64,000 nt of DNA from Grifola frondosa (lineage: Eukaryota; Basidiomycota; Agaricomycetes; Polyporales; Grifolaceae). Of the stretch, positions 7,735 to 59,125 are shown one piece after another. A program made the position numbers and the translations under genes. The notes under the pieces are model-generated. The model saw nothing but the letters and a program-made list of their open reading frames with translations, was not told where the DNA came from and ran no database searches. How positions within the stretch are numbered: the stretch's first letter is position 1; each line of letters begins with the position of its first letter. The stretch spans positions 1,116,001 through 1,180,000 of the forward strand of contig LUGG01000013.1 in assembly GCA_001683735.1 (NCBI GenBank). Direction: 5' to 3'.

Positions 7735-7792
7735 AGTTAGCGCTACCTAAGGACAGTAGGTGTACACAACTAAGGGAACAAAGTTGCGATGG

Positions 7793-13126: not shown

Positions 13127-14045
13127 CACTGAGGGGAATTACCGATGTTTCCACCGAACACATTGTGGACACATGGCGGACTTTGATTGAATAAGTCCCG
13201 TGTGTGACTGGCAGTCACATTGTAATCTCATTTAAAACAACCATTCAAATGTGTTTCGAATAATTACAAGCTGAGTTGGGATCATATTCGCTTATGATAT
13301 TTTATATGTGCGTGCAATGTCACCGGCTTGATCTGTTCAAACTGAAATCTCGATATACATATTAAATGTTTGAGTTACAAACATGAGAGAAATGTCTAAA
13401 ATGTGTTTATGGTTTAATCATAATGTATCGCCCAAATACATTGGGACAACATATTGTAAACATTGTTAAAACATAGTGAGGATATTATATAGAATACCAA
13501 AATTTTATCCATACATGTGAGGACATTCAGAATCTTATCAAAGTGGTAACATTAATTGTTTTTCATGAACATATATAAAATACATATTAATATCCGGTTC
13601 AAAATGTGTCCGAAGAATTTATATTAAATGTTTTCCAGTGAATCGCGTGACCACAATCCCGATCCAATTCCGACACTATTCTCAGGTGATTCCCACGCGA
13701 TTCCCACGTGATCTACACACGAACTCATTCCACCATCCACGCCATGGGACAATCTTGAACTTGAATCACAGACAGCTGCGGCACCTCTCCATTCTAGCCT
13801 TGTAATACTACGTTTCGCTTCACTCGCTTCACTCTTCTTCCGTGCACGTTCGGGGTGGCGGGGCGCCAAAGACTTCGAGTCCTGGTGCACCGTTTCTTGG
13901 GGACGACTTCGGGTCCTCCCCTTGTTCCTCTGGCCGACGTCCCTTTTGACTGCTTTGCTAGCTCTTCTTGGTCGTTGGCGGTCTGTTTTTTTTTTTTCAC
14001 AAGCGTTCCTCAGCTCGAGAGCGGTGCGGATTAGCATGAATCCCG
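13127..14045 (+). repeat. Left terminal inverted repeat (about 0.92 kb)
   Basis: Begins CACTGAGGGGAATTACCGAT and matches 58,222-59,125 in reverse complement. Differences I could spot by eye are a few substitutions (for example near 13,239 and 13,360), a three-base gap near 13,775 and small length changes in an A/T run. The outer 500 bp are very AT-rich and contain the motif AAATGTGTYY at about 13,248, 13,399 and 13,602, which may be subterminal transposase-binding repeats. The inner part (13,829-14,006) is the 178-bp block also found twice inside the element. No long gene-like frame crosses the AT-rich part. Confidence 0.85.
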
Positions 14046-14199
14046 GGGTGCTAGAAGAACGGATTTTTAAATGGAGATCTTCCACGAGCAACAATGCTCT
14101 GCAAAGCAGTATACCCACGAAGACGGCAGCATCCAGCTCGTAAGTCCTCTCCGTTCTCACCTCAGACGCGCATTATCCAAAGTCTATCCTGCAGAACAT

Positions 14200-14610
14200 C
14201 GGGCGTGCGAGTGCTTCCCCTCCTCTTCCTCGAGCAAAGTCCCCACCATCCTCGCATCCCTATTCGGCGCCCTCATCGGCCTCGCGCTCGTCATCGGGGT
14301 CGTTTATTACATCCTTCACTGCATCTACAAAGCGCACCACTCCCGTGAGCGCCAGTTCCGCTGCGGCCGGGCGAACGACTCGTCCAGCGGAAGACCAGCG
14401 GCAGTGGCACGGTCAAGCTTGTCAAGGGCACCTTCGGCGGGCGCGCGCAGGGCTCGCAAGCTAATCTCCTCGGCGTTTTGCAGCATTTTGCATCCTCCAT
14501 TCTCGCAAATCGCCCGCATCCTCTGCGCACGCCCAGCACTCCAGCAGCTACACCCCCTACGTCGTCTACCAACAGAGACCATGCAACCCACTATCCTCCA
14601 CAACGCTGAT
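14200..14610 (+). pseudogene. Membrane-receptor tail fragment
   Basis: One frame reads KVPTILASLFGALIGLALVI (start of a single transmembrane helix) followed by basic IYKAHHSRER. A shifted frame continues with KLVKGTFGGRAQGSQANLL and a Pro/Thr-rich tail to a stop near 14,610. This resembles the C-terminal half of a one-pass membrane protein of a kind common in mushrooms, without its extracellular part. It starts just inside the left terminal repeat, so it may be a captured fragment. No function can be given. Confidence 0.4.
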
Positions 14611-15100
14611 GCCACCGCGAAACTCTCTTGAGTTTTCTTTGAGAGCCCGAACGGGCGGCGCTCATCTGCGTCTCGCGCACACCTGCAAAGTGTTCAAGGA
14701 ACCCGCGCTGAACGTCCTCTGGCAGGATGTTGATTGCCCATGCTGCTCATCGTGCTCGTCCTCAATATGGTCCTCAAATGTGCCCGCCGTGCTGGGCTTG
14801 GTATGCTTACTTCTTCCGCTCGAGCCCGCATAACCCATGATGCTCACACCTGCCTCACAGGTGACAATGCCTGAGTGCGATGACTGGGCACGTCTGCTTG
14901 CGTACGACGAGTTCATGCGCAGCGTAACACATGTCGAACGCATTGGCAATGTTTCCCCCACTGCCTGACCAACGTTTGAGGAGCGCCGCCCATGCCGTAC
15001 ATCCTGCCCAACCTCCGGAGACAGCTGCAGGCCTCAAGCGCTGCCAGCTCTTCCGTGATTGTGCTGAATGTTGTAAGTTTACTGTTGTCTTTGTTGCACA
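14600..15100 (+). pseudogene. F-box protein fragment
   Basis: The frame from 14,609 contains LAHTCKVFKEPALNVLWQDV, the second half of a mushroom F-box domain, preceded by a disrupted LLSFL-like start. After a short intron-like gap near 14,800-14,860 another frame reads MPECDDWARLLAYDEFMRSV, as in F-box proteins of this group. The leucine-rich remainder is absent or scrambled. Probably a truncated F-box gene rather than a working one. F-box proteins recruit substrates to SCF ubiquitin ligases; no substrate can be inferred. Confidence 0.4.
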
Positions 15101-15617
15101 CAACTGATATTCGTCTTATAGATCAAGTGCGCCATTGATGAGTGGGGTACCGGATGTGTGCGGCAATATCATGAGGTGTATCACTGATTTGATGGAAGGC
15201 TCAGTGATTTGGACTGTGATAGCGATGGAGATCAAGTAGTATGTAGCCTGTAGTCACCTCAAATGAAAGTATCCGTTGGTGCTTCTTGTGGCCAGTTGAA
15301 GTCGGAAAGTCATCTATAAGTTCATTGTTGCACACTGTTGGGATGTAGGGTGGTTGACACTGGTGTCTGCAGGCTTTTCTATTGTTCTACAGAATTTTCG
15401 GTTACTACAGAGTGCTACAAAGTTCGTGCGCTACGCTACCGACAACTCCGTAGTAGGAGAACCTCAACACGAGTATATCCACAATGTCGGTAACATGGTA
15501 GAGAAACGTTTTCCTGATGGAAATAGGGAGCCAACGAAATATAGTATCTGCAGTTACAGACAATATACATGGTACAGAGAGAGGTGAAAGATGCGAGAAG
15601 TGGCTTGTGTCGGTCAG
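15100..15617. other. No gene recognised
   Basis: About 500 bp without a convincing coding frame. Short frames occur on both strands, but none carries a known motif. Confidence 0.4.
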
Positions 15618-16982
15618 TTAGCAATGCGGAGTCTTAGAGATCGATAAGTGTAATAACAGATGTGATACATTTTGATGGTGGCTTACTTTTTCGACGAACT
15701 CGATGCTGCTATGCGAGATGCTTTTCTTTTCCTTTCGGAAGAAGAGCTGAGGGAATAAACAGTCAAATTGGCGAAATGAATCAAGAGTATGATGAAATTC
15801 ACGTGCTGCCGGAAGTGTTGTTGTTCGGGGCAAACAGTAGTGTCTGTGTTGACAGTGAGGAAGCCCTTTATGTAAATGATAGGTAAGTGTGAAATGAAAG
15901 CAGATGTGAAAATATAATGGAGACTAACATGCCAGAGATGCCGCGAAAACGCAACCGAACCATGTCTTCGAGCACGAAAACAACGTCGGTGACGGACTGT
16001 GACCAGATGGAATCATCGGTGATTGGCCCTTTCGGGATCCACCAAAACAGGGACAAGACGGCGATACGGATGCCACAACGACTACCTTTATCGAGAGCGG
16101 CCAACTGAGTGATATCGGTAGCCGCTATGAGGCGGAGGCGAGGCGATTGCAGGCGTCTTCGATCAGGGTTGATTGTCCACCACCATGTCCTCCAGGCGGC
16201 ACCAAAAGTGTCCGCATTGATTTGCTTTGGGCCGGCGTGAGGCAGTCGTTTTTGCCGGATCCACTCGTAAATTTCGATGGGCCGTGCATTGGTGTCCAGG
16301 ATCTCGCGCTACAAAAAGATGTTAAAAAAACACAATGATCAAACAGTGTAAAATGGGACCTTGCAGCCTTTCCTGAGGTTCTCATAGTCCGTGAGTAATT
16401 GCCAGAGTTTAAGGCAACTAGCCTTGACGTCAGGTGACACATTTTCGCGTTGAGCAGTGGTGCGTAGCGAATAGTGTTGAGTTCCGGGTCGTCAGTAGTA
16501 TTGTCAAGAATACTTTCCAGCTTGAACAGTAAGATGGGGCTTAGCGCACGCACGATGCGACTGAAAATGAAATGTTACTTCGAGTTGGTCAACGGCGCTC
16601 TCTGTGCAGGTGTCGGATTTGTGATCGATGAAAGATTGGTTGGGGCAGGGTCGGGCGAGAGATGGGGCAGAGCAGGGTCGATATTAACTTTGTCGACAAA
16701 GAGAGGAATGGAGGCGGAAGCAGGGTCAGCAGACACTTAAAGATAATGTATGAATAACATGTTAGGCGACTGTTCAATTGTGGCTCACCGGTGTGGACAT
16801 CCTGAATGACATTAGACGCGACTACGATGAGTGAGGATGTTGCTATGGTCTGTTCGAGATGTTCGAGGACGCGATCGAGACGGGTTCTGTCAAACTTGAG
16901 GAGTTCGATAATTTCCGCCATTTCTGCGTGGGCCATGATGATTGTGCTCGAGAGAAGAAAGCAAGAGAGCATTGAGAACATT
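15618..16982 (-). CDS. Unrecognised gene, left copy of a duplicated family
   Basis: Not recognised. The N-terminus MFSMLSCFLLSSTIIMAHAE could be a signal peptide; alternatively translation starts at the inner MAHAEMAEIIELLKFDRTRL (16,936). It continues LDRVLEHLEQTIATSS. Later minus-strand stretches read LSPILLFKLESILDNTTDDP, IEIYEWIRKNDCLTPAQSKS and a last part with SRCGIRIAVLSLFWWIPKG and VTDVVFVLEDMVRLRFRGIS. Exons seem separated by short introns. The first exon is nearly identical to one on the plus strand at 43.93-44.12 kb, where the downstream sequence differs, so the two copies share only their 5' ends. Confidence 0.35.
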
Positions 16983-17362
16983 GGTTCGTTGATGTTTAAA
17001 TATGTGGGTGTTGCCCACGGTTCGACAACCAACTCAAGTTCCAGACGCGGTGGACGAGGTTGGCGACACGCGGTCACGTGCTGGGATTCCGATTGTTCCC
17101 AGTCAATAGGGTCTCAATGCTCATTCACGTTTGACAAAAAGCATTCGATCTCAATGGTCGATTAATAAGTACTTATACAACGGCTTCAAAAATTAACAGC
17201 AAGCACACTTTGTACAATGATTTCTCTAAGATGGCTAGATGGCACGTATGCAGGAGTTGTACGATATATGCGTAACAATTTGAATGTTCCTGATTCGGCG
17301 AAAAAGCCGCTTATCATGTGACCCCATGCTTGGGTTCATCGTGAATCGGAACTTCACTCACT

Positions 17363-17540
17363 TTCACTCTTCTTCCGTGCACGTTCGGGGTGGCGGGGCG
17401 CCAAAGACTTCGAGTCCTGGTGCACCGTTTCTTGGGGACGACTTCGGGTCCTCCCCTTGTTCCTCTGGCCGACGTCCCTTTTGACTGCTTTGCTAGCTCT
17501 TCTTGGTCGTTGGCGGTCTGTTTTTTTTTTTCACAAGCGT
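17363..17540 (+). repeat. 178-bp block, left inner copy
   Basis: Starts TTTCACTCTTCTTCCGTGCA and ends in a T-run plus CACAAGCGT. The same block lies at 13,829-14,006 (same direction) and at 41,668-41,846 and 58,253-58,426 (reversed), so it is mirrored around the middle of the element. The length of the T/A run differs between copies. Confidence 0.85.
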
Positions 17541-17572
17541 ATGCACAAGACACTATTATCTGCGGCGGAACC

Positions 17573-18190
17573 CATGTGGGCGTGCTGAAGTCGAGTTTCG
17601 ATGGAAGCGTGCAGAAGCATGGTGTTTTTCTTGGTCCATTGGATTCAATTCGATTTGCGCGCGGTTTTCGTCCTGACTGGTGAGTTACCGACTGATCTTG
17701 CTGTGACTGTCTGGAAAAGCTGATAGCGCGTTAGTTACGACTGTGGATGACGTTGAAGTGTGGGCGACGTCGTGAAAACGTTTGAAGGAGATCGTAGGAG
17801 ACAACTTCGACCAGAACCCGTGTGGGCATGCTGAAGTCGAATTTCGATGGAAGCGTGCAGAAGCATGGTGTTTTTCTTGGTCCATTGGATTCAATTCGAT
17901 TTGCGCGCGGTTTTCGTCCTGACTGGTGAGTTACCGACTGATCTTGCTGTGACTGTCTGGAAAAGCTGATAGCGCGTTAGTTACGACTGTGGATGACGTT
18001 GAAGTGTGGGCGACGTCGTGAAAACGTTTGAAGGAGATCGTAGGAGACAACTTCGACCAGAACCCGTGTGGGCATGCTGAAGTCGAATTTCGATGGAAGC
18101 GTGCAGAAGCATGGTGTTTTTCTTGGTCCATTGGATTCAATTCGATTTGCGCGCGGTTTTCGTCCTGACTGGTGAGTTATCGACTGATCT
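17573..18190 (+). repeat. 246-bp tandem repeat, left array (about 2.5 units)
   Basis: Unit starts appear at about 17,573, 17,820 and 18,066, spaced 246 bp. Each unit contains GCGTGCAGAAGCATGGTGTT and a splice-donor-like GGTGAGTTA. Two units are virtually identical. The array recurs reversed at about 41,030-41,640 and partly at 57,863-58,200. Open frames in it are identical between units and look incidental. Confidence 0.85.
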
Positions 18191-19049
18191 GACTGTGACT
18201 GTCTAGAAAAGCTGATAGCGCGTTGGTTACGACTGTGGATGACGTTGAAGTGCGATTCTCCCTCATCACCTCCCATGCTATCTCCCATGCCTCACGTGGA
18301 ATTTGGGTGTCATATCGGAGAGGTTTGTATCCCGTTGATATCCTCCGCCTCCGACAACGACTAAGGGCCGTTCGTCCTCGAAGCGCGTACAAATAGCATC
18401 GTGGCATCGATGCCTTCGCAATTCCAGTCTCGGATAGACAAGTATCGCTTCAACTGACTGTCCGAAGGAGGCACTCCTCGGATTAGAGACCATCGCATTC
18501 TGTGAATTCGTGGACGGGGCACAAGACGGCGTTATGTTGGACTCGTCGTCCACATTCACGGATCTTCAGTGTTGTACCGACGCTTTATCAGTCGAGTTGT
18601 GGCAACCGGAGGCCATCAAGGCCCTCTCAATGTTTGTAGCCTTTGTTAGTAATCGACCCAAGAGGACCAATGTACCCTTGCCGACACCGCGTCTTCTTGA
18701 CCAATTACCCTTCTGTCTCTCGGCATCACTTTCCATAGGCCGATTCATGTTTTTCGTGACCTCTCCAAACCTCGCACCTGACGAGGAGTTGAACATCTCT
18801 CGGGGAGTAGCGTCTTGAGTAGCGTCTCACATGGGAATAACCATCACGTACTGTGCCCTCGGAAGTAGACATTCTGAGGGAATGCCTGGTGTTCAATCCC
18901 GCAGTCAACAGTGACTCCTTTTATCACTCCCCCAGAGCAGAGTTTCCATATTTTTTGAAATGTCGCATCACCTACCAGACGTGCTCTCCTGCACGTTGCG
19001 TTCTGGGATATCGCTCTTCGGGATGCAATCGCTACTCGCTTCGCTGGAG

Positions 19050-20870
19050 ATGACCCGTATGGTGTCGGGGACAATAGTGATCATCCTCGCTCTCTGGAAC
19101 ATTTCCGAATCCAAAACATCGAGACCAATATCATCATATCTGGTACGCGTTACAACGGTTTTACTCGTTCAACAGCAAAGGATAAATGTTTTGTGGATAT
19201 GTTCATATGTAATGTGCACGGATTGCTGCACCTTACTCTTCTATACAATCTGCTCCTGGCCTTGAGGACCTTGAGATCGCTCTTTCCACCCTCGTCATCC
19301 GGGAAACTGCCTACGGACACTCCTTAGTCGACGCTATCTTTTGACTTCCGATGTTCTCTCGATTCGCTCCAACTGCGGTGGGATTTCCCCATTTTGACCA
19401 GAACGTTTGCCCGTGTTCGATCCTTAACATGTCCCGTCTCGCCTGAACTCAAGATCGAGGTTGGATGGGGCAGCATAGTACTCGCGGTTTCCGTTCTCGT
19501 TATCAACGACGGCGTTGAGACGGAGGAATGGGAAGAACTGGCTTGTTTACCACGCTGGAACAAGTACATCCAGTCGCTATCACAGTGAAGGGCGATAACG
19601 GTTGTCTCCAAATTCCTTTCGGCTACGTGGCGGCGGATTTGATCCTCGACATTAATGTGACGATGAAGATATCAAGCATTTGATTCATATGGGTTCGACG
19701 GCGTTGGGGCTCTTCTTGAAGGTCGAAGAGGATATCCGCGAGCCTCTCCCTCATCTGCTCAATGCATGCGTCAATCTTGTCTCTTTGAACGTACACTTCT
19801 CCCTCCGACCTTGGGGCATTGGGACGCATCATATTTCGGCTTGCGTCCTGCCAACGGTGGAAGACCGAACGTGAGTCAGACTTGCTGCACTCGGGGGTAG
19901 TATTCTGGCTCCGAGCGTTCTCGAGCAGGAGCTGGTCTTCATCGATCGACTCGGATCCTCCCCTCCGTTGGCCCGTTTGGCATTTGATGAGCTGACATTG
20001 CACTTATCACCACCGTCGTTTCCGCCCAACGCCATCCCCGACTTCCTGCGTACCGCGGGCCGAAGTCTCCCACGCGGTACACAATTCTAATTCTGATGCA
20101 TATTAACTTCACTGTGGCTTCTTTCCGTCTGTCACGCCGCGACTACCCTCTTCCATTGCTCAATATCCCACCCAACGGCGTAACTGCCGTTAATGCCGCT
20201 CTGGAGTTCGACACTGCTCTTGTCATCGCAGGGGAGACGGGAGCGGAGGATTCTGTAGAGTGGATTCCGTGTGAGATTGTGTGAAAACTCATCGTGGTCT
20301 TCACGGTGCTTCTCCGCTCAGCATTTATGTCCCAAAGACGATCATGCCAGTCAAGACTTATATGCTAACCAATAATTCGTGTCATGACGGACGGCGTGAC
20401 CGATTTCGGATGGGGACTTAGCTATGGAGCTGCAACTCAGGACTTAATGCGAATCATTGATACGTTGTCGCATGCTCCTCCTGATAGCTCCCCTCCTATT
20501 AGGTTCTGGGATGAGGTAAGTAGTTAGTAGTGCATGGCCAGAGTTCGCTTTCCGTGGGCTGACGCGCCGGAACAAATGACCTTCATCTTAGTTGAGGTTG
20601 GCATTTCATTGGCATGTCAAATTTTCTTTAAGAACGAAGTCCACCTGCACATGAAGGGTCTCGAGTATGTCTCTGCTATATTCTGCGTGACTCTCATCAC
20701 TTGGTCATAGGTTCCCAAGGGCCCATGAAACGGAAGGGGCTGGCGCCGGCTTTACACTTCGTTGGACAGGAAATCCGCAACTTATGATTGGACAACCAAA
20801 TGATGGGGGCGAATTCGTCCAAGTCGTCAGCGATTCGATGCCATTGGTTATACCCAAGTAAGCCACCAAC
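19050..20870 (+). pseudogene. Degenerate coding fragments, unknown family
   Basis: Scattered plus-strand stretches look protein-coding, for example LEDLEIALSTLVIRETAYGH near 19,265-19,330, a stretch near 20,200 with LVIAGETGAEDSVEWIPCEI, GVTDFGWGLSYGAATQDL near 20,400, and FTLRWTGNPQLMIGQPNDGG near 20,760. Frames change often and stops intervene. This could be a decayed leucine-rich F-box protein of a mushroom family, but no motif proves it. Confidence 0.25.
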
Positions 20871-23340
20871 GTTTGATATTCACTGGTAACTTCATTAATC
20901 ACCGGATTGGTAGCGTGGAGGATTCATACAGCGTACAGGAAGGAGTGCAAGAGAAATCCAAGTCACCAAGGGAAGGGAAACCGGCTCCAAAGTCGAAAGT
21001 GTCGAAAGGTTCACGCCAAATTCCGCTCTGGCGCCTGCTTTGGCGTTGGGTTTGTCTTAGAGCGAGCGTGTGGACCAGAATGCCCAAGTTGTACTGGAAA
21101 GGCCTTCCAGCGCCAGTGCCGTTTGTTTGATCTCAAGCCTCATTACGACGTGAGGTTAGAGAACAAGGTGGGAATTCCTGTACTCAAGGTGGGGTTTTTG
21201 ATATTATTTGCATTCTACACTAAGCGCCGTTCAGTCATTGGAGGACTCCTACAACGGATTGCGGTCCGACTTCATCCATATGTCGATCTCTTTGACACGT
21301 AGAGTGAAGAGTCCGCAGTCCAGCAGTCTTCACCTCTCGCCTGAAGTATTAGCTCACCTCTGGTCTTGGCGGTCTCTCTTTGATGGAGTTTTTTCGCTGC
21401 CTATCAGGCAAGGGAATTTGTACTGACGAAAACGGTTCGTATCGCCCCAATTCGGACAACACCTGGCCACACTGAAGTGTTTTCGTCCCTCAGCTATTCA
21501 TATCCCATGCATATATCGACAGTTCGAAGGACACTAGTGCATCTCTTACCTGCAGCATCTTGTCCATGGTTTACATATTTCAAACCCACAGTTGACCACG
21601 GTCCAAGCGCATGAGAGCATCAGATAGGATGCAGTAAGTTTGGCGCAGAAGATACACATGTCTGTTTCCTTGGGAAAGAGTGAGTTATGTTTTCCTATGA
21701 TGTGATGCCCAAGACTCATGCCCGGGACAGCGGTCTCCCAGATACAGATTGATTGATCTAGCGTCTGCATGCGCGAAGGAGTTACAACAAAAGACGCTTG
21801 ACGCAGCGAGATCTGCAAGACCTTAAGGCATGCGGATGTCTTCTGATTCACAGTCAGAGAATGAGGTGAGTAACATTCGTCTTTGTTAGGCTCACGACCA
21901 ATCTTTTCACTCTAATATTTCCCTCGCTAGAAGACAAGAAATGGTCCAAATGATCTTCCAAGAATGATCTCGCTACTGTAGAGTTATATTTCTCAGTTGC
22001 GTGCAGTGGATGCCGCATCGCATGCTCAAAGCCAAGGCAGTCAAAGTTACTACATGCCTACCGATTCGGTCTCTCCAGAAGAATGGACGGAATTCGACAA
22101 CGTTTATCAAGTGTATTGCCCTCAGATAATTATGGATAATGCTATTCGTGGTGTATGTTCCTGAATCCTCGTTATCTTGAACAGCACTGACTACGATCCA
22201 CAGGTAATGATGCAGTATTATTATTGTTCTCGGCGAGGCTTTGAGGCATATTGATTCGTGTAACTCACACCCTTTCCAGTGCGGTGGAGTTTTATTCGCG
22301 ATCAGACCGAGGCTGCTCTCGCTGAATTCCAGCGCGACTGCGAGAAACAACGAGGGCCTGCTGTAAACGCGCAGCCAGCAGCAGTTGTCGCTGTTCGGAA
22401 ACGTCTTGGCAGCGATAGATCGAGTACCTCTTTCGAGATCTCGCCCAAACTATTATCGGATTCTCCTGCCTCCATCGATCCACTACAGGCATGGTCGGAT
22501 GGTGTTTCCCTTAGAAAAAGTCATTTCTGCCTCCTGCTAAAGCCACAGGTTGTGCTCCAAATTGTGTTCGCGCAGATTATGGTGCGTGCGAAGTTGCGAT
22601 TCCCCCGGTGGTGTTAGGTACCCTAATAACCCCGCGCTGCGCAACTACAGTTCCTCAAGACATCGGCGTACCCTTGAGTGTACCATAGTTCAGACAATAG
22701 TGTCAAATCTGATTGATAGTGTCAGGTAAGGAGCGGAGGCGGAGACGACCACACCTCCGGTGGAGGGGAAGCACGGACGCGACCGAGGTACGACGGACTT
22801 CAGGCGCCTTCAAGGACGATTCAATAGATTCGCGGAAGTTTCTGGTAACTCGGGTTGGTCGTGAGCGTCTCTCTAGCCGTATTGGCAGAAGGTACGTTTT
22901 CTCGATAGACCCTGTTGACTACTGACAACGGCGAGATTGATGCATGGGCGCGCACTCTGTGGATACTGCGAGCATGAGCCTATGTGGGCTTATTGTAAAC
23001 CCGGATTTGACGATCAAGGACTAAGAGTCGTCGACGCAATCGGGCACGGGTGGTGTAAATGCACCATGGTATACCGAATGTTGAGAGGTCATGACATACT
23101 TCTGCGATTCTGGTACGATACTACTCCTACCAGCAACTCGCTTATTCCACAACGCAGAAATCATGACCATATATAAAAGCTTTCCGAACGTTGTACATAC
23201 AACCGCTGCATGATTTAAAAAGCAGAGTAGACTTCCGCGTTACACATACGGCCGGGTCTTGTGATGATCTCCGTTGTGTGATTGAGCCATCCTGGCAAGA
23301 ATTGATTATCTTTCCAGCGGAGAACACGATAGAAGGTGAC
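20871..23340. other. Mostly unassigned, possible gene remnants
   Basis: About 2.5 kb without a recognised gene. A plus-strand piece near 21,030-21,130 is cysteine-containing (ACGPECPSCTGKAFQRQC). Another near 22,000-22,140 reads SVSPEEWTEFDNVYQVYCPQ, and 22,279-22,617 is open for 112 codons. None matches a family I know. Confidence 0.25.
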
Positions 23341-38677: not shown

Positions 38678-38689
38678 CGGGCACGGTGA

Positions 38690-41640: not shown

Positions 41641-41667
41641 CGCCGCAGATAATAGTGTCTTGTGCAT

Positions 41668-46960: not shown

Positions 46961-49534
46961 GTTCTGTCACACCTCTAACATCGACAACCTAAAATCATAT
47001 ATCCCCACTACTATAGCGGAATACGAGTAGGAAGATAGACCGATCATTCACACTAGTTCTGCACCTCGGTAACTTGGTCGTGCACTTTATTGAAACAGCT
47101 ATGGGCGAATAGGTGTCTAAACGTCCGACTTTGCATCTCGCACTTGAATTCATCCGACTTTCAGGACACAGTCATTCCAGCTCACCCATCCGCGACAGGA
47201 ATACCGATATCTTCCATTTCCGAAGGGCACACATGAGGTGTTGTACTGGCCCGGCTTCAGACGGCTCTAACTCTGGGTCATGAGCCGTCGAAAGCCCTGA
47301 GCTAGGGCTTCACACACTTTCCTGTACTATCACGATCCTTCACCCACGAAGAGATTCACTTCCGGAGCGCGCTCCCCAGACGCATCAATTCCGAGGCATT
47401 CCACTGGGTGTCTGCAAGTTGATCAAGACGGGCAACAAGAGGCTATGGTGTCGATAGCTGCATGGGACCAGGTAGAGACGTCCCGGCATAGAGAGACACA
47501 GGAAATACGCGGAAAGAACTCCGAACGTTCATGAAGGACGCATTGTCCTGAAATGGGTGCTTCGGGAACGGGTCCACGTCGAACAGTTTGATGACCGTCT
47601 TGCGTACCTTATGAGCAACTCTCACCGCGTCATTACCTTGCTGCTGAGCGCTGATGGGTCATCAGCATTGACGCCGTCCATGATCGCGTACTCTTTCAGC
47701 TTTCCTTGGACGGCTGCCAGGACACAGACCGATTCTGTGCCTGCCTCGCTTTGCAGGGTTCTACGGTGTCAGAGTGAAGCCCCTATGAGCAGGGTAGATT
47801 TCGGAATCTCGGCCCAAACGTAATTGCAAAAATAATGCATCCGTAAGGGAACAATCTAAACGCGCGTGCGCGGCGCGTTTTGTAGGATTAAAAGGGTGCT
47901 GTATCACGGGTTGGTATTCACAGCAGGACAGTCGTAAAAGGCATTCGCAGACCGAGAGTTCCAGTAAAAAGACGTACAGACGCAGACGTTGGTGCACGAG
48001 GCCTAGAAAGTTGGTGTTATCAATCTAATATATGCATACGTTTCCTGTCATACATTACAATCCCGGCGTCCCGATACGTGCTGAGAAGATGTTTCAAATC
48101 ATCTCGCACATTGAAACGAGGGTACTACTCACAAGGGGTGGATATATTCCTCTCGCGCTTCTTCTCGCGGCCCTTGTAGGTGCGCATAGTCTCCTTCGTC
48201 ACCCATCGAGGTTCTCCATTAGACAAGTGGAGCACATATTCGTCAAGATCCGGATGAGGATATCCTTCATCGATGAGCGTCCAATCCAAAGATGGTGTGC
48301 GGATCCAAATTTGTCTCGAATTGTGATTATAATTGTGCAGAAATAACTCCCCAGACTGTGCCAGAACGGTCGGGGGCACAGACAACGGGCTGTCACCATT
48401 TGAGAGATACCACACAATTTTTTCACCGCGGCCTCTGATGGCATGATCGTGCCTCGTAGCTCTGGGATACGTAGCATGCCTCGTAGCGCTGGAACACGCA
48501 TCAATGTACTAACTTTCAGTAAAAATTTCAGTACTCACATGGAATTCGATGCAATTCGATGAGAAGGAGATGCTGAGGTGGCACTTATGGATGTCCAACT
48601 TTGAGATTGAATGCATGGACTTAGAACAGACTCACGTTGCGGGAGAGAAATTATTTCTCGAGCTCACGCGCGATGATACTGGTAAAGGACTTTGGTGTCT
48701 ATGTTCTCTCATCTAGAAAGGGTGAGTTGTAACTATATGCCGTGCCCTCAAGATGACTCACACTATCCATTCTCGTCTCCTGGATATTGTACACAGGAGC
48801 TGCCACAGGGGCACTGTAGAAATGGAAAGAGAATCATCTCGATGTCATCGTGGGTAACTCAATCCTACAGCTGCACACAGACCTCATGCCAGGTTCAGGA
48901 ATTTGGAGGTGGCGATGCCTGAGAATGGCATAATGGGGTGGATGTACAATACCTTCATCGCTTTCAAGAAGAAGGGCCGGATATGAAGATTCTTCGATGA
49001 CAAGGACAGCGGGAGATTTCGGTTCGGTCATATGGGTCAGAGTAGTATCGGCACGAAGTCGACTCTCCCACGCTCTTTCTCGATACTTACACACGGCTGG
49101 GTGCCCGTCTGTGGGCGCTGCAGTGACAGCTTTCACACGCTCGCTCTGTTTCTTCTCGTTCGTTGCTCGTTTTATTCACCCTTGAAGTAAGTGTTTCTTC
49201 CCCCTTTAGCGCACCAATCTGCTGATATCCCCCCAAATAGGGCCACTATAAGGTGCGCACCATTTTCGTCCCACCCCACGGTTCCAGAAAGACTTTGAGT
49301 CCTCTGGGTACACGTGTGTGACAGCCAACTACGAGTTCGCTGTTGCATGGGTTGTGTCGTCTCTCTCGATGAACATTAATGGCCAGTGATATGCAGATTT
49401 TAGGTGAGTTTGTTCACTCCCACGCGCTGGATAGACTTCGAGTCGTCTGGTTTCCCATGCACAGCCAATTTCAAGTTCGCTGTTGCTCAGGTTCTTTCTG
49501 AGGCATGTTCTCATGCGAATGTCTATTCAGCTCC
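46961..49534. other. Largely unassigned; coding remnant on the minus strand near 48.1-48.5 kb
   Basis: About 2.6 kb without a complete gene. On the minus strand, 48,125-48,500 contains VLAQSGELFLHNYNHNSRQI, WTLIDEGYPHPDLDEYVLHL and RWVTKETMRTYKGREKKRER, a plausible exon of an unknown protein. Two related stretches near 49,270-49,330 and 49,400-49,470 on the plus strand repeat CTTTGAGTC/CTTCGAGTC with GTTCGCTGTTGC, which looks like a local duplication just upstream of the next gene. Confidence 0.3.
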
Positions 49535-51664
49535 ATGGGCGACAGGACTCTGCGGTTCCAGTTGGAGGTGCAAGGGGATCCGAATGGTGAGCTCTCCAAT
49601 TCTTGGCACGTAACTATTAGCTGATGCCTTCCAGTGACATTGTCCTTCAACGATGCACTTGTCGCTGCTGTATCCGAAGATGGCGGCTGGATCATTACGT
49701 CTCCAAATGTTGGATTTATTCCGCGACCCATCATAGGTCTTGTGGAGGTAAGACTTCGTGAGGACGGACGTTATGGCGAGGTCGATCCCATTCAATGGCC
49801 TCAACTGTTCGATGAACGCCTCCCCCATTATGCGATGATCCCTCGGTGTGCAAAGGACGGCCAATTCAATATGCATCCTGCACCAGCGATGTGGCTCAAC
49901 GCTAAGGACTCCGACTTCGTTCCTTGCGGGGGGGGTTCCATGGTGGAAGGGTTAGGCTTTCTCCGTAGCGTGGCTGTTGAAGCGCTGGAGAAGCCCGTTG
50001 ACCATCTTAGCAAACTTGTCACGACTGTTTTTAAGCAGAGGCCAAGCCGACTCGCTTTCACAGAAATGTCGATGAGGCATGCATGCACCCGTCTTCGCCA
50101 TTGTCCAGCTACTCGTCGCGACATCATCCTTCAAGTTGCGGAGGTGCAGAGATATTACTTGGAAACTCTTGCCTACCTCAATTGGCATGCGGAGTTTGTG
50201 GACAATCCTCTCGCGTCTCCGGACGCAGTACCTATCACAGTTGCCGATGATTTGATGGGCGCTCTTACGACAGATCCGGGTGTTGTGCAAAAGTTGATGT
50301 CGGCAGGGATACCTGTGTGGTATTTCAGGAGGCCATCACAGATGACGCAGGGTGTCGTTATTAGGCGAGTCGTCGGGATCTCTACCCCGAACGTCAAGAC
50401 GGAGCATGGAATGTACCACGGGGTTCCTATCTATACCGGCAGCGCTGGATACCGTCATCTCATCGCTATGGGCCGGGGCGGGCATACGTACCATGATATT
50501 GCTTCTACTCCCTATCCTAATGTTCAAGATCCTGCTCTTTATTTTGGCTCAGTCGTGACCAACAAGCCTCAAATTCTCATGACGCCAGAAGAATTGGCCG
50601 CCCTACTCCTTGCACGGCCTCGCTCACCCATGCCTATGTCGAACAGTGCTCGCAGCAGACCTCGCACTCACACCCAGCCGTGTAAGTACTTTGTATGCAT
50701 CTTGTCGCTAGTCCGCATCGCTGATCAACTGTCGCTTACAGATTACATACCTCCCGTACGCGGAAGGGACAAGTTTGTCGAACTAGAGCATGCTTACATG
50801 CCTCCCGTCATCGAAATCTGGGCGGAAGCACTGACATCTGTCAACCGCGCGCGGCCTAGACAATCGGGGAGTAGGCAATGGGGCTATTGGACTCCAGAAC
50901 CTGCTCTAGTCTTAGGTCCCACTGCGCCTATGCGTGTTGCCCGCTATATTCGCAATTGGGTAGCAGCTCGTGAGCCTTGGTTGTATTTGTTGGAGATTCC
51001 GACAATATCTTTGGAGGACATTAAGACCCAGACATGGAGAACGCTTTTGAACAATGAGGGCGATTTGATTGATGCCGAGGAGCTATCCTTCGATGAGCTT
51101 ACCACTCGGGCTGCGAAAACCAAGGCAGAAGTGGTTCATGTTTTTGGCCGGGTCTTTGAGAAAGAGAGGGTCAATCCACAGGTCACTAGGCAGCTTGCAT
51201 GGTTCGGTCATCGTTTTGATGTTGTTCCGGCTACGCTCGCTCCTCAGATTATTTGGGAGCTACATGAACTTGGCTTCCGCTACGAGCTTCTCGCTTTGGA
51301 CCGTCACTTCGTCCCAAACCAAAAAGGCCCTGCGGAGGAAATCTTGCGGGAGGAGCTTATATCGGCTATTTTTTCAGGCAATGGGGCTATACGTGTCACC
51401 TCTCTGCCTACGTTTGACTGTGGTTTGGCAGCCCGCAAACCAAAGGACCGTGCTGCCTCCCTTGAGGCACTTCGCAAGGTCATGTTACGTTGGACTCCCT
51501 GTCCTCCTCTCCTGCGCAAGGCACAGCCTCTTTCGAGGATGTCTGAGGATGATTACATTTCAATGATGGAGAGGTACATCGCGAGGGGCTATACGCAGTG
51601 TTTCTATGATGCCTCCGGCCGTGCTCCAATTGTTCCCCATCGCTTCCCGTTCATGTTGATCTGA
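49535..51664 (+). CDS. Large companion gene of the transposase, function unknown
   Basis: Three exons. Exon 1 starts MGDRTLRFQLEVQGDPN and joins over an intron (49,587-49,634) to VTLSFNDALVAAVSEDGGWI. A second intron (50,682-50,741, 60 nt) is a multiple of three and free of stops. About 670 residues. Stretches that look conserved include FVPCGGGSMVEGLGFLR, LETLAYLNWHAEFVDNPLAS, DDLMGALTTDPGVVQKLMSA, GIPVWYFRRPSQMTQGVVIR, and a C-terminal block with PVIEIWAEALTSVNRARP, WLYLLEIPTISLEDIKTQTW and LAWFGHRFDVVPATLAPQII. No catalytic motif is recognised. I recall similar proteins as frequent in Agaricomycetes. It is undamaged, on the same strand as the transposase and 0.6 kb upstream of it, so it may serve the element. 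Confidence 0.7.
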
Positions 51665-52296
51665 TGTCCATCGTCTTGCCTTCTCTCATAAAGATTCTTC
51701 TTACATGCCTTTGTCGTCTACCGGCCTGGTTCATCACGGTCATGGAGTTGATGCTCACCACGTGCCTGGTTATTCTCCCTTTGATTGTTGTTTGTTTTAT
51801 CTGTTGTACTGTTTTAGTATTCGAATGCTTTGTGTATGCGTCTCAGTGCTCTGTCTAGATTATGTGAAATATCATGATGCACTCCATGCAAGAGGTTGAC
51901 TTTGATTATGAGGAAGAAGGTACGTGAGCGTCAGTGAAGGATTACCGGAACAGAAGATTTATACCTAGGCGTGAGTTAGTAGAGAATGTTGGCGGTGCAA
52001 ATCTGGTAGATGCATATAGCTTCTATGTAATGATGCATCACTGACTGGCTCGTTGGAAAATTCACAGAAAATTCAAATTATGCTACGAACTTCATGACAA
52101 GCACAAAATCGTAAATTCTGCCTCATTCAATCCAGATATATTTGAATCTATTCATCTATTGCTAAGTGTAGTAAGTACCCGGAATATCAATATTAGATTG
52201 CTATCAAGTTGAATCTAGATCTACGCTTGCATTATTTTGCGAAGACTGGATTTGAGAGTAGCAACGAGATTCCTCTTCCAGCGATCCTACCTCCTC
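51665..52296. other. Spacer between companion gene and transposase
   Basis: About 630 bp. It includes the 3' region of the companion gene and presumably the transposase promoter. An in-frame upstream ATG for the transposase lies at 52,237. Confidence 0.4.
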
Positions 52297-55200
52297 ATGT
52301 ATGTATCGACAGAACACACTCCTGCTGCGAGTGCTGCCACAATTCGACGGCGGAAAAAGCTGGAGAAGCTGAGGGCGTTAATTGGATCCGCGCAAGCTTC
52401 GGAATCTGAAGTTGACGCGCTCAGAAGGGCAGTATCAGTTTTGACATTACAGGACTGCCCACTTAAACCGAGGCCAGACTCAAGCTCATCAGGACGCACC
52501 ACATTTGACCATGCGCATTGCGATGAATCAGGATCCACCGTACCCAAGAAGGAGAAACCCGATGTCCATACCTCTTGGTCCGAAAGTGCCGATCGAATTC
52601 TGCAAGACATAGCATTCATTCGATCCAGTTGGACTCTCAGAATGGTTTCATTCTTTCCGAATATTCATTCATTGGTTTTTCTCCACGATCCCGTGTCATC
52701 GGATGCTGCGATTCTAGAAGAGTCACCGACAATTCCGACCGAATGCAATTCTGGCACATACTCCCTACTCCCATCTTCCCCAGAAAACCGAGGCTTCTTG
52801 GAGCATGAGAGCTGGGTATTTTCCATCCGCTCCACCTTGCAGGCTATGGACACGCGCAGCGATCACCAGGCCAATGATGCTCGTATTTTCCTTCTGGACA
52901 AAGTTGAACAGGAGACCATACGCCTAGCAGATACGAAGAAGTTGGAGTGGGAGAGGCAGCGAACCACCCTGAAGTCGGGAATTGTCGGAGGCCTGCTTCG
53001 CATAGATACAGGTACGCAGCTAGTCTAACATTCAAGCACTGGCTGAACTCGTCCTATTCAAATAGAACAGTATTTTACAGCGCAATCACATCTGTGGAGC
53101 TCTAAGATGGTCATCATTCAAGCTTCATATGTCCTTGTGCTCTTACTCCACCTGATTTTCGGGCTTCCAAGGAGAGCCAGCCAGGTATTATTGGCGGGAT
53201 TGCGGAGCATCGTCCGGCTGTCCCTATTGTATGCGCGGTGCGGCAGCCTGAGTGCACCAGACGAGCGCCTTCTCTCCCAGATCGCCCGGGATCCTGATAC
53301 GGTGATAAACACGTTCAACCTCGAGCCCACCGTCACGTCGTACATCTGCTGTCCAGAGTGTTATGCACTCTATGCGGATATAATGTCTGCCCCTGCGACT
53401 TGCACCTATCGCACCACTGCGCAAAGTGCTCCATGCAGTGCAAAGTTATGGCGGACGCGGAAAGCGGGCATAGATTCCTCACGCTCACCTATCCGCAAAT
53501 ATCTTCACCAATCGTTAAAGCAGTGGGTTGGGCGGCTTCTATCCCGTCCCGACATCCAGGACTACCTCGACACCTTCCAGGAGGGGTCAATCGGAGTCAT
53601 GCAGGATATCTTCGATGGAAGCGTGCTTCGCTCGTTTCTAGGTCCAGATGGCAAGCAATTTCTCACCACACAAGCGGGGGAGCTCAGACTGGTTTTCAGT
53701 CTCAATGTCGATGGCTTCAATCCCTTCCAGATGAAGGAGAGCAAACAAAAAGCCACAAGCACCGCCATGTATATGGTGTGTCTCAATCTTCCACCCCACT
53801 TGCGTTACCTTCCGGAGAACGTCTACCTTGCGGGTGTTATTCCTGGTCCAAACAAGCCATCTATCGATCAGATAAATCATTTCCTGGCTCTCCTCGTTGA
53901 TGAGCTGGAAATCTTTTGGGATCCAGGAGTGGAGTATTCGCGCTCGGCAAAATTCATATCAGGATGTCGAGTTCGCGTAGCTCTCATTCCTCTGGTGTCC
54001 GATGTTCCAGCTGCACGTCAAGTTGCTGGACTAGGTTCTCATAATCACACTTATTTCTGCAGCTACTGTTGTCTCAAAAGCGAAGACATCGAAACCCTGG
54101 ATCCTAGCACATGGCCCTCGCGAGATCTTGCATTCCATCGGAAAAGTGCTGAGGAGTGGCGCACGGCTCAGAGTACTCATGAAAGAGAGATCATCTTTGA
54201 ACGGACGGGAGGAATCCGATACTCCGAATTGCTTCGATTGCCTTACTGGGACCCCATTTTGTATGTCGTCATTGATTCCATGCACGACTTATACCTTGGG
54301 ATCCTCAAGAATCATGTCCGAGAGATTTGGGGAATCAGTGTTGATATGGACGATGGCAGTGCACAGCATGCCCGGAAGCCGCCGCCTATCCGGCCTGACA
54401 CACGGACAATGGCTCTCGCTGCAGACTGCCTATATTACGGTTCAGTAACTGCGCTGAAGAACTGCGGCAAGGCTGCACTTTGGCACCTCTGCGCCGATCG
54501 TGACTTGCGGCGAGCAGGGACTATTAAGCAGTTGATGAAAAAGCTTGTTGAATGGGTGAGTGCATTTTGATGGATGATCCCTAGCTGATGACCCTATCAT
54601 CTCAGCGTACACGAGAAGGATTTCCCAAACCGGTTACAAGCAGTACAGGGGCTGCATCGAACTATTCTGGCATTTCTCTTCCAACACCCCAGCCCGCGGA
54701 GCAAACGTCGCCCGACCAAAGTACGCGTACCCCAACGAACGAGGAAATTGTGGCGGCTGAGAAGACGTTGCTCAAGGCGAAGACGACGAAAACGCTTGCG
54801 AACAAAAGGAAGGATATCCTGGTTGCTATGTGTAGCGAGCGCGGATTATCTGGTGCAGGTATAAGAGCAGATCTCGCCAAACGTCTTATGGATTGGGTGC
54901 GGCATTCAGAGATTGTGCTGTTATTGGTTTTTCTCATAACCGACGTTCCTAGAGAGACTTACAGCAGCCGTCAATAAATGTAGCAGGGGAGACAGTCAGT
55001 TCATTCCCCAGTAGCCTGATTCATTCTAAGATATGCACTCCACAGAGTAGTTCGTCGACATCAAGACAGAATGTCCCCGAGCCCCAAGATCCATCAAGAC
55101 AGGGAGTTGCGGAGTTGCGCACTGCGCCAGACCATGCGATTGGCCGTCAAACGCTAGAGGAATACCGCAGAGACCGGAATCGAATGGAGCTCCCGAGTTG

Positions 55201-56526
55201 GATTGTTCCTGGACCAGTCGCATTTGGTACCACTCAATACGGGAAGCTCAGCGCTGATCAGTGGAGGACGATCGGTACCATCAACCTTCCTATCACCCTG
55301 ATACGGACATGGGGGACGGAGAAGGGTAGGCGCCTCGAGATGTTGCACAACTTCATGGATGCCGTTGATGCGATCGAGATTATTGGATTGAGAGAGATTG
55401 ACGAACAGCATATACAGGCTGCTGAGCACTCGTTGCAGAAGTACCTGAAAACATTAATGGTGCTTTACAAGGAAGCAAAAATACAACCAAACCACCACCT
55501 CGCGTTGCATCTGCCCGAGTTTCTGCGGCTTTTCGGACCGGTACATTCCTGGCGGACTTTCGCCTTCGAGCGATTTAATCATTTGTTGCAGATGATTAAC
55601 ACGAACAATAATTTTGGTAAGCATCATAGTATTGGCATCGTCAACTTCGCTAATGGAAGGCCTGCAGGCGAACTTGAAATGACGTTCATGCGCCACAGCT
55701 GCCGTGCTGCCAACCTTCGTCCTTTGCTTCGCCATCCGGCAGTCAAAGGCGCATTGTCCGAAGCCATCTCAGTCTATGAAGGATTGACAAATGAAACTCT
55801 TCGAGGGACATATGTGGAAGACATCGTGCGTGGCGTACAAAGTGTTCCGATCCAAAGCAATCCTCGCAAACCGCGCAAGGAAATTGTCCTGGAAGATCGG
55901 GTATTCAGTACTTTGCTACAAAGACTCAATTCCGAGGAGGGTGCGAAGCTTTATGTTGATGAGCGTCAGAAGGTTAAAGCATCCCGTGAGTGCTTTTTGA
56001 CTAGAAGAGCATTTCTCTGCACCGGGATCGTAGTTGCAGGCGTGCAATATAAAAGTCAAGACATTGCATCGAAGGACAGCAATATCATTTTTCGTCTTCC
56101 CAATGTCTGCCCAGACATAAATCCTGCCGGTCGGATCAAACTGGTATTCTTGTATTCAAGGTCTAACTCGAAGGGAGCAAGGGTCGAAGAAACATTCTTG
56201 GTGGTAGAGCGATTGATAGAGCTCAAGGACAAGGACATATCGTTGGACAATTTTCGCGCTTACAAGTGCGCCGGCGGCCGCCTCTGTTATAACCGCTATC
56301 ACGAACAGATTTATGTGATTCGGCCTAAGGACATCATATGCCACTTCGCGAAGACGCCTATGGAGGAACTGAAACTCAGTGAGCATTGTGTTCATGTTCG
56401 TCCTTTAAATCGTGTAAGTGTTTAAAATCTAATGTCGAAAGCTAGAGCATAATGTTGATCTGTACTCTATTGCAGCTATTGCAGGCTATCAATCTCCCAC
56501 CATTGGAAAACCCTTCGGACGAATAA
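52297..56526 (+). CDS. Tnp2-family transposase (CACTA/EnSpm)
   Basis: Catalyses cut-and-paste transposition in the nucleus by a DDE-type mechanism. The N-terminal part is helical (IRRRKKLEKLRALIGSAQAS, DKVEQETIRLADTKKLEWER), as expected from a host-like alternative exon. The core carries zinc-type cysteines (YICCPECYALYAD), LVFSLNVDGFNPFQMKESKQ with a likely catalytic Asp, VYLAGVIPGPNKPSIDQINH, FCSYCCLK and VVIDSMHDLYLGILKNHV (Tnp2 hallmark). A SAP-like segment follows, ILVAMCSERGLSGAGIRADL, then LALHLPEFLRLFGPVHSWRT, FAFERFNHLLQMINTNNNFG and a C-terminal domain ending LPPLENPSDE-stop. Introns lie near 53,011-53,064, 54,556-54,605, 54,897-54,983, 55,010-55,050 and 56,414-56,475. No frameshift or internal stop was found. 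A start at 52,237 is also possible. Confidence 0.9.
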
Positions 56527-56649: not shown

Positions 56650-57790
56650 AGGTTACTCTAGTTCGGAGCCACACGGGTGCGGTCCCTCAGCCTCAGCCTT
56701 CTTGAACGAATCCCGGCAGCGATGTCTAGTTAACAAGGAGAACCAGTAAGAGTGGGCCTTCCACCTCGCGCGGAAGGCTTTCTCGCCGGCTGCGTGAAAC
56801 AAGTTGTTTCCAACTCCAAGTCTCCATAAGCCGGAGTCATATCGTCCGATCACTAAGGTGCGGGAGTTTCTCCTCATTACCGTCATCATCCGGATCGATG
56901 AGAGGTTGGCCATGACGCGGCGCTGTCCTAGCGCTCTCGATGCACTGCAACGCGCTCACATCAACCTCGCAGTGTTTTGCTCTCCAGGTCAGCGCGCCTA
57001 GCATACGCGGATCGAAAGGAAGAAATGACGGAAGCATGCACCTCGAGCCAAGCGAATCCCAAATGGCTTCAGGTGCCTTAGCTGGTTCCCAAAGCAACCT
57101 CTCCCGGGTTCGGTCAAACAGAACATCGATATGACCCTGGGGCCTCCAGAACTGGGTGCGCTTATAGATCTTCCAGAACAAGTAAAGGCCGGCGAAGATA
57201 GGGAGCTTGATGTCTAGCAGTCATCAACGGTCAGCCGGCGCACGAATGTGGAAAGTAGACGACCATACATGCTGTGAGGAAACCGGAAGCGTTGAAGTCC
57301 CAGAGCATGGCGAACCCATTGATGAGAATGAAGATCGTGATCCAGAACATGCCCCAGTATGTTGCAGGGAGCCATGGTATACGAGTTTCTTGCGGTCCAA
57401 GCCTTGCGTCTTCAATCCGCGGTCTATGTGACAGCCAGTGAGTAACATCATGCATTCCACGGTCCGAAAAAGACGTACAGAAGAAGACATACGTGATGTT
57501 CACGCCTAACCATCCGAAGAACCCGCCAAGTCGACGAACGAGTTGAACATGGTTACCGCGCCGTTCGACACGTTCATAAACGAGAGGAATGCGAACGCGC
57601 TCTCAGCCAACATCAGGCCGCCCTTCGTGCAATATGTGAGAAACCTCTGCGCCTGCCCGCGCAGAGCAAGTCCGTAGAGCACACGGGAGGAGCAGAACAG
57701 GAACGAGTTGCCGGCAGAGAATGCGATGCATAGTGTCTTGTGCCGGCGACGAAAGAGCACTGCGATGATTTTGAAACCTCGTGGGGTGAG
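56650..57790 (-). pseudogene. Amino acid permease, C-terminal half only
   Basis: Read on the minus strand: AFSAGNSFLFCSSRVLYGLA, FLTYCTKGGLMLAESAFAFL, FMNVSNGAVTMFNSFVDLAG, WLSHRPRIEDARLGPQETRI, YWGMFWITIFILINGFAMLW, IKLPIFAGLYLFWKIYKRTQ and FWRPQGH. These are membrane segments 8-12 of a fungal amino acid permease (APC superfamily, YAT-like). Segments 1-7 are absent. The 5' break near 57,790 is followed within 75 bp by the 246-bp repeat that leads into the right terminal repeat. It is not a copy of the permease at 5.4-7.7 kb, from which it differs widely. Probably a captured gene fragment. Confidence 0.7.
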
Positions 57791-57862
57791 GGAGATATTG
57801 CACCATCTTCACACTCGCGTTCTCGCTCCCCAATCTATTTTGAAACGTGAAGCCGTAATCGC

Positions 57863-58200
57863 AATCCAACGGACCAAGAAAAACACCATGCTTCTGCACG
57901 CTTCCATCGAAATTCGACTTCAGCATGCCCACACGGGTTCTGGTCGAAGTTGTCTCCTACGATCTCCTTCAAACGTTTTCACGACGTCGCCCACACTTCA
58001 ACGTCATCCACAGTCGTAACTAACGCGCTATCAGCTTTTCCAGACAGTCACAGCAAGATCAGTCGATAACTCACCAGTCAGGACGAAAACCGCGCGCAAA
58101 TCGAATTGAATCCAATGGACCAAGAAACGCCATGCTTCTGCACGCTTCCATCGAAACTCGACTTCAGCACGCCCACATGGGTTCCGCCGCAGATAATAGT
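57863..58200 (-). repeat. 246-bp repeat, third location (about 1.4 units)
   Basis: Same unit and direction as 41,030-41,640, with repeat phases near 57,925 and 58,168 (243 bp apart). It runs straight into the right terminal inverted repeat, linking the inner repeats to the element end. Confidence 0.8.
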
Positions 58201-58221
58201 GTCTTGTGCATCCCAGGATTC

Positions 58222-59125
58222 ATGCTAATCCGCACCGCTCTCGAGCTGAGGAACGCTTGTGAAAAAAAAACAGACCGCCAACGACCAAGAAGAGCTAGCA
58301 AAGCAGTCAAAAGGGACGTCGGCCAGAGGAACAAGGGGAGGACCCGAAGTCGTCCCAAGAAACGGTGCACCAGGACTCGAAGTCTTTGGTGCCCCGCCAC
58401 CCCGAACCTGCACGGAAGAAGAGTGAAGCGAGTGAAGCGAAACGTAGTATTACAAGGCTAGAATGGAGAGGTGCCGCAGTCTGTGATTCAAGTTCAAGAT
58501 TGTCCCATGGCGTGGATGGTGGAATGAGTTCGTGTGTAGATCACGTGGGAATCGCGTGGGAATCACCTGAGAATAGTGTCGGAATTGGATCGGGATTGTG
58601 GTCACGCGATTCACTGGAAAACATTTAATATAAATTCTTCGGACACATTTTGAACCGGATATTAATATGTATTTTATATATGTTCATGAAAAACAATTAA
58701 TGTTACCACTTTGATAAGATTCTGAATGTCCTCACATGTATGGATAAAATTTTGGTATTCTATATAATATCCTCACTATGTTTTAACAATGTTTACAATA
58801 TGTTGTCCCAATGTATTTGGGCGATACATTATGATTAAACCATAAACACATTTTAGACATTTCTCTCATGTTTGTAACTCAAACATTTAATATGCATATC
58901 GAGATTTCAGTTTGAACAGATCAAGCCGGTGACATTGCACGCACATATAAAATATCATAAGCGAATATGATCCCAACTCAGCTTGTAATTATTCGAAACA
59001 CATTTGAATGGTTATTTTAAATGAGATTACAATGTGACTGCCAGTCACACACGGGACTTATTCAATCAAAGTCCGCCATGTGTCCACAATGTGTTCGGTG
59101 GAAACATCGGTAATTCCCCTCAGTG
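58222..59125 (-). repeat. Right terminal inverted repeat (about 0.90 kb)
   Basis: Reverse complement of 13,127-14,045. Ends GTAATTCCCCTCAGTG at 59,125. The 178-bp block occupies 58,253-58,426. Identity with the left copy is about 99% by eye. Confidence 0.85.

Follow-up and report, generated by a model that had tools for sequence, protein, structure and literature searches.

A probable 46-kb CACTA-type transposon in Grifola frondosa and its giant relatives

The window considered here is the whole 64,000-nucleotide stretch C12:1116001-1180000 of Grifola frondosa (contigs are given as C plus a number), and the genome searched with it comprises 39.06 Mb in 64 contigs. A 46.0-kb segment of the window very probably represents one autonomous-looking transposon of the CACTA/EnSpm type, which stands among four complete giants (46-69 kb) and two further, inferred ones. 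In agreement with this type, it possesses CACT(A/G) termini, a 3-bp target duplication, and a Tnp2 transposase with D-D-E and C/H motifs. The transposase would bind the ends, and the whole unit would move by cut and paste. The features that delimit and define the element are as follows.

13124..13126, no strand assigned: left copy of the target duplication, AGA (sequence read)
13127..14058, + strand: left terminal inverted repeat, beginning CACTGAGGGGAA... (BLAST, MAFFT, terminus family)
52219..56425, + strand: Tnp2 transposase gene, a four-exon open model with a SAP-like segment (Pfam, model)
58202..59125, - strand: right terminal inverted repeat (BLAST, MAFFT)
59126..59128, no strand assigned: right copy of the target duplication, AGA (sequence read)

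The element spans positions 13127-59125, with CACTG starting at the first and CAGTG closing at the last. The two terminal repeats align over 932 columns at 98.4% identity in BLAST, and MAFFT places 7 mismatches and 8 gap columns between them. Similarity to related ends elsewhere begins at the CACTG terminus. Searched as DNA against the genome, the left end returned 11 matches, comprising the two ends, two inner pieces located in internal repeats, and seven short stretches at other places (68-129 bp, 74-81% identity). No second full-length 0.9-kb end was found in this search, which also missed the related ends on C2, C7, and C27 described below.

The transposase gene contains introns at 53012-53065 and 54556-54605 and a third near 54883-54956, the latter being one among several possible. 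It matches Pfam family PF02992 (Transposase_21) at 53047-54567 with an E value of 4.7e-16. D222, D319, and C338-C341 (CxxC) are found in its 507-aa frame, and H181-H186 (HxxxxH) and E206 in its 490-aa frame. Judging from the motif order and from the spacing in RAG1, D319 would be the second catalytic D. The order D, D, C(2)C, H(3-4)H, E is given in PMC12730594. A structure model of the transposase core is RAG1-like. The protein search with Tnp2 was considered over the best 120 of 400 matches.

Related termini were sought genome-wide with two patterns. A 31-base terminus pattern with at most 3 mismatches gave 35 matches, versus none for a reversed control, and a loose 12-base pattern gave 72, versus 8 for its control. 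From the 31-base pattern combined with a genome search for Tnp2, three further complete giants emerge, each with its own relative of the window transposase near the right end; their ends were read over short stretches.

C2:2290745-2338483: 47.7 kb, duplication AGA
C7:1403854-1458021: 54.2 kb, duplication CCA
C27:251938-320645: 68.7 kb, duplication CACC

With the window element included, all four complete giants are flanked by a perfect 3- or 4-bp duplication, for which the chance expectation is about 1.5e-7. The terminus family also includes ten small paired copies of 0.4-1.9 kb, nine of which carry a duplication (TAG, AGTC, CCG, CAA, TTC, CCTT, AAGT, AGT, and TTA). The Tnp2 search combined with the 31- and 12-base patterns across the genome revealed no close relative that is small, bears Tnp2, and has paired termini.

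Two additional giants appear to be split at contig ends. A left end lies at position 16237 of C51 and another, reversed, at position 61572 of C14. The two are 99.3% identical over at least 5.0 kb, the match starting at the terminus and extending inward, and they occupy different sites. C30 and C48 begin inside an element, 1.14 kb from its right end, and their first 570 bp are common with the C51 and C14 left ends. The flanking 3-mers agree for C51 with C30 (TAT) and for C14 with C48 (ATC), while the alternative pairings fail, one (C51 with C48) sharing 2 bp and the other none. The comparison, made over 5 kb at the left ends and 1.1 kb at the right ends, points to two giants that are nearly identical, with minimum sizes of 57.4 and 62.7 kb, at two sites. 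C51:66004-72446 yielded no right terminus, so that the C51 unit seems to run off its contig. Away from the ends, the C30 and C51 flanks share two stretches of 688 and 127 bp at 78-79% identity.

An earlier note on this DNA had described CACTG/CAGTG ends with inverted repeats of about 0.9 kb, an identical AGA outside both of them, and an intact Tnp2 inside, all of which are borne out by the alignments, the flanking bases, and the open four-exon model. Its proposal of a single giant CACTA-type transposon is supported by the recurrence of paired termini around three complete units of 48-69 kb with their own duplications and transposases. It had also proposed searching the genome for further copies of the 0.9-kb end, paired or solo, and had named as an objection that the ends might be widespread as independent small elements. 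No other full-length copy came to light, and related termini do pair elsewhere according to the 31-base pattern. The objection stands insofar as ten small paired copies exist; it fails in that the DNA search returned no second full-length copy of the window's own end, and in that the large units, too, have paired termini.

With regard to gene content, the giants have several genes in common, which are listed here for the window.

23344..24686, - strand: protein B gene, with open stretches 24686-23703 and 23766-23344 (DNA and protein comparison)
34330..35886, - strand: WD40-repeat protein, block A (Pfam, DNA comparison)
44579..46020, - strand: KDM3-type JmjC protein (exons 46020-45724, 45669-45519, 45468-45134, and 45085-44579)
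48076..48469, no strand assigned: block E (DNA comparison)

The genome DNA comparison covered 18960-38900, 42185-57860, 16700-19100, and 13127-14050, whereas 14051-16699, 38901-40252, and 57861-58201 were part of no query. Several blocks recur at 65-73% DNA identity. The WD40 block (34330-35769) and the protein B block (23242-24190) are present in all five other giants, and the transposase in those on C2, C7, C27, and C51. Block E is matched in the C27, C14, and C51 giants, and also on C28, on C2 (1.626 Mb), and at C27:144368. Among places outside the window, the five other giants hold 8 of 12 for WD40 (P 1.4e-14), 5 of 13 for protein B (P 6e-8), and 3 of 12 for JmjC (P 1.3e-4). The six giants together make up 0.86% of the genome, and these P values treat copies as independent, though the C51 and C14 giants are near-identical. 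Matches were merged into places by eye (14 rows into 12 places for WD40, 19 into 14 for protein B, and 47 into 13 for JmjC). The left 13.1-kb flank, used as a control, gave five genome matches, none of them in any giant. Since WD40 and protein B occur in every one of the six giants and JmjC in four, the three behave as genes of the element.

Protein B is found at 14 genome places, of which four are weak (E about 1e-4). Twelve have a Tnp2 match no more than 41 kb away, the remaining two being on C14, inside the giant, and on C28, near the contig start. In the protein search its sole relative is Grifola's own, by a word-based method with length limits that can miss others. Protein B is a candidate for a second, end-binding protein of the TNPA type. 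In addition, 246-bp and 22-bp repeats near the ends are candidate subterminal repeats to which such a TNPA-like protein may bind.

The JmjC gene is modelled with four exons and three GT-AG introns of 48-54 bp. Its product matches PF02373 (E 4e-11) and aligns with human KDM3B (E 4.7e-55), including the HxD and distal H residues. The best protein match outside Grifola, among the best 120 of 324, is from Sparassis crispa (44%), and these matches include more than one JmjC protein per species for Sparassis, Artomyces, and Phlebia. Copies occur in the window, C2, and C7 giants at the DNA level and in the C51 giant at the protein level. Identity to the window copy is 63% in the C2 giant, 69% in C7, 48-70% by piece in C51, and 61% at C2:1.64 Mb. 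Outside the giants it reaches 67% on C32 and 79% over 80 residues at C3:2.74 Mb, whereas the C4 copy, at 36-65% by piece, is perhaps the host's own gene. Two copies close to contig ends, C3:2738382-2739498 and C48:73590-74400, match the query alike in several pieces, and they possibly represent more assembly-broken giants or subtelomeric copies. KDM3 enzymes remove methylation from lysine 9 of histone H3 (H3K9). The putative demethylase may thus remove repressive H3K9 methylation from the element. An anti-silencing role is plausible but less likely than not, the more so as equally similar copies lie outside the giants.

Some shared genes also occur away from the giants. Four regions, C2:1616882-1651542, C28:9282-21329, C43:3430-6888, and C3:1700720-1724663, contain shared genes or Tnp2 without recognised termini, and they are probably older, rearranged, or split giants. 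A further frame of the window, block C, has a different distribution.

27219..28385, + strand: block C, 389-aa open frame without a Pfam match

This frame appears nucleotidyltransferase-like from a motif judged by eye. The genome comparison gave no match for it in any of the five other giants, and copies away from Tnp2 occur on C13 and at C2:1.32 Mb. It is also present near more distant Tnp2 genes, in units at C26:199360-219539, C24:359095-379286, and C30:52459-72652, each with block C and a weak protein B in the same order. Protein B is about 19-20 kb from Tnp2 in these units and block C within about 20 kb, which suggests a possible second lineage of giant CACTA elements.

A second, internal inverted repeat, absent from the earlier note, was also detected in the window element.

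16836..18955, + strand: left arm of the internal inverted repeat (BLAST, repeat analysis)
40253..44117, - strand: right arm, interrupted at 42185-43928 (BLAST)
57863..58211, - strand: repeats of the 246-bp type at the right end (repeat analysis, BLAST)

The arms match over 1932 bp at 99.95% (17024-18955 versus 40253-42184 in BLAST) and continue as a 189-bp piece (16836-17024 and 43929-44117) past the 1.74-kb interruption of the right arm. The left arm contains 2.8 copies of a 246-bp tandem repeat (17568-18252) and, at 17352-17540, 189 bp of terminal-repeat sequence. These internal repeats surround a 21-kb middle, and the giants differ in how protein B is oriented with respect to Tnp2. Recombination between the arms may flip the middle segment.

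Pfam was run on 47 chosen in-element frames or models, 36 of which gave no family at the thresholds used. Weak matches to Tcp11, the DNA ligase C-terminal domain, and BNR_4 were not used. The remaining features are as follows.

18256..22554, no strand assigned: 4.3-kb C13-like segment, 81-88% identical with gaps to C13:1078068-1083145
30977..32062, - strand: protein kinase fragment (PF00069 at 30977-31462, E 8.2e-15)
49625..51661, + strand: 679-aa open frame belonging to a dispersed multigene family (41 genome matches, window included)
57138..57808, - strand: amino-acid permease fragment (PF00324 at 57509-57808, E 7.1e-7)

The kinase fragment has an FHA match at 31588-31920 just under the cut-off (E 9.7e-4), and 31615-32379 is 81% like C10:919813-920571. 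The kinase may be shared with the C27 giant, inside which the adjacent 127 bp (30748-30874) have a 72% match. The C13-like segment starts where the 246-bp repeats stop. Sequences at window 22554 and 47608-47755 adjoin each other on C13, which may preserve an older order since broken up within the element. A 1.7-kb piece (42218-43928), 91% like C19:843494-845207, interrupts the right arm of the internal repeat. The permease fragment has relatives at C6:957422 and C1:1908206, and copies of 57138-57725 and 50681-52041 exist on C6. The genome DNA comparison gave no match in the other giants for the permease fragment, the 679-aa frame, the C13-like segment, or the C19-like piece. The permease fragment and the C13-like segment look like captured host DNA, and such host pieces would have been picked up as passengers. 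As for the host-like cargo proposed in the earlier note, it is upheld for the permease, C13-like, and C19-like pieces, which look host-derived or dispersed, but not for protein B, WD40, and JmjC, which behave as element genes. Chromatin and kinase genes were correctly anticipated in JmjC and the kinase fragment, whereas the proposed meiosis gene is unconfirmed beyond a kinase with a sub-threshold FHA match.

Two observations concern the ends and the flank. The inner part of the terminal repeat (13983-14079 and 58217-58252) resembles C1:1909269-1909366, a place that also matches window 56794-56986 and 57753-57845, and given this likeness, part of the terminal repeat may be captured DNA. Outside the element, the left flank at 5246-8276 contains stretches 90-91% identical to places within C8:612282-642844.

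Other origins of the 46.0-kb segment must be weighed. An ordinary CACTA element of several kb might have been inflated by nested insertions and captures, its size and gene content being accidental. Pieces with 81-92% copies elsewhere indeed lie inside (shared with C19, C13, C10, and, in two cases, C6), and the order and orientation of protein B, WD40, and JmjC differ between giants. On the other hand, all four complete Tnp2-bearing units measure 46-69 kb without any small counterpart of the kind sought above, and the recurrence of WD40, protein B, block E, and JmjC at 65-71% identity indicates an old association, not recent nesting; inflation of this kind is improbable. Considerably less credible is the suggestion that two separate CACTA elements, or ends joined by rearrangement, surround ordinary host chromosome. 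It could draw on the host-like gene pieces between the ends, on solitary and small members of the terminus family, and on two 12-base terminus words that lie 60.2 kb from each other at C12:1319509-1379755. This pair was rejected, however, as it has no duplication and no similarity beyond the 12 bases, unlike the real pairs; moreover, AGA lies at both outer ends of the window element, the three other complete giants have their own 3-4-mers, and the inner genes are common to giants while the left flank is not. Least believable of all is that the interior is an endogenised large virus or plasmid with an acquired CACTA transposase, as Teratorn has with piggyBac. Such a composite would be compatible with the size, the internal inverted repeats, and the presence of genes for a kinase, a WD40 protein, and a nucleotidyltransferase-like protein, but the 47 chosen frames include no viral hallmark family (a weak argument, since 36 of them have no family at all), the JmjC gene has introns, and the named relatives of its product, among the best 120 of 324 matches, are basidiomycete proteins.

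The reading of the segment as one CACTA-type transposon within a family of giants is itself opposed by a number of points. The evidence comes from one genome assembly, and the structure model of the Tnp2 core is RAG1-like with a low TM-score (0.36 at best). Duplications in the terminus family vary between 3 and 4 bp, not being strictly 3, and the small pair C1:529504-529948 has none. Among the eight closest Tnp2 places, three (C2:1.65 Mb, C43, and C3:1.72 Mb) lack termini recognised by the 31- and 12-base patterns. The pairing of C51 and C14 with right ends rests on 3-bp matches, where C51 with C48 would still share 2 bp; position and orientation of some shared genes differ between the C14 and C51 interiors, and the genome Tnp2 search found no relative of this group in the assembled part of C14. 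DNA and protein comparison detected JmjC neither in C27 nor in C14 as far as the latter is assembled, and 9 of its 12 places beyond the window lie outside the other giants, some (C32, C3:2.74 Mb) being as close as inside ones.

Compared with known systems, the window element, read as a single transposon, stands apart from known CACTA elements in size and in the shared gene set, the largest found in print being 20.5 kb. This is the soybean element Tgmt* (PMC2613891), which has 13-bp inverted repeats. It likewise shows CACT(A/G) ends, a 3-bp duplication, and Tnp2, and its subterminal repeats have candidate counterparts here, whereas the window element has 932-bp repeats and its family reaches 46-69 kb with shared extra genes. 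A quinoa CACTA element measures 16.5 kb (PMC8978399). EnSpm families of Chondrus crispus, of 16-20 kb with 4-5 open reading frames (cited in PMC6431247), are also enlarged by extra frames but do not reach half the length of the window element. Fungal relatives of Transposase_21 were already reported in 2006 (PMC1636069). The Plavaka group was rejected, as its termini are TGT..ACA or CATCA..TGATG, versus CACTG..CAGTG here, and so was the Kyakuja-Dileera-Zisupton group, with an 8-bp duplication for Zisupton versus the 3-bp AGA (both PMC12730594). A search of open-licence literature returned neither a giant CACTA element in basidiomycetes nor a CACTA element with a JmjC gene.

Fungal EnSpm and Plavaka elements carry TET/JBP dioxygenases (PMC12730594). 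The TET/JBP-bearing EnSpm elements resemble the Grifola giants as fungal CMC-type elements with CAC..GTG ends, 3-bp duplications, and an enzyme thought to counter silencing. They differ in that TET/JBP enzymes act on DNA methylation, while the Grifola giants carry a KDM3-type JmjC gene. Its presence in four of six giants makes the idea of a transposon-borne histone demethylase testable, in parallel to TET/JBP. Teratorn of fishes, at 41-182 kb a piggyBac enzyme fused to a herpesvirus genome (PMC6431247), is likewise a giant DDE transposon with extra internal inverted repeats, one subtype having an inverted middle segment.

Starships are known from ascomycetes (PMC12134995) and also from Tremella (PMC13066641). 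They share with the Grifola giants the scale, the cargo genes, and, as proposed here, the self-mobilising unit, but they employ a tyrosine recombinase, whereas the window element would use a DDE Tnp2 transposase with long inverted repeats. Tnp2 is the sole recombinase among the 47 chosen frames, which contain no tyrosine recombinase, although unchosen frames or short exons could hide one. If the present reading is correct, a cut-and-paste DDE transposase of the RAG/Transib group can carry units about two to three times longer than the largest CACTA element found in print. It is conceivable, if doubtful as yet, that basidiomycetes own a class of giant cargo transposons, with a RAG-related CACTA enzyme, an accessory kit, often an H3K9-type demethylase, and host gene movement on the Starship scale. 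Such giants are hard to assemble, two being broken at contig ends here, which may explain why they were missed. On the present reading of the giants, mushrooms would have a counterpart of Starships built on a different enzyme and a possible vehicle for gene sets.

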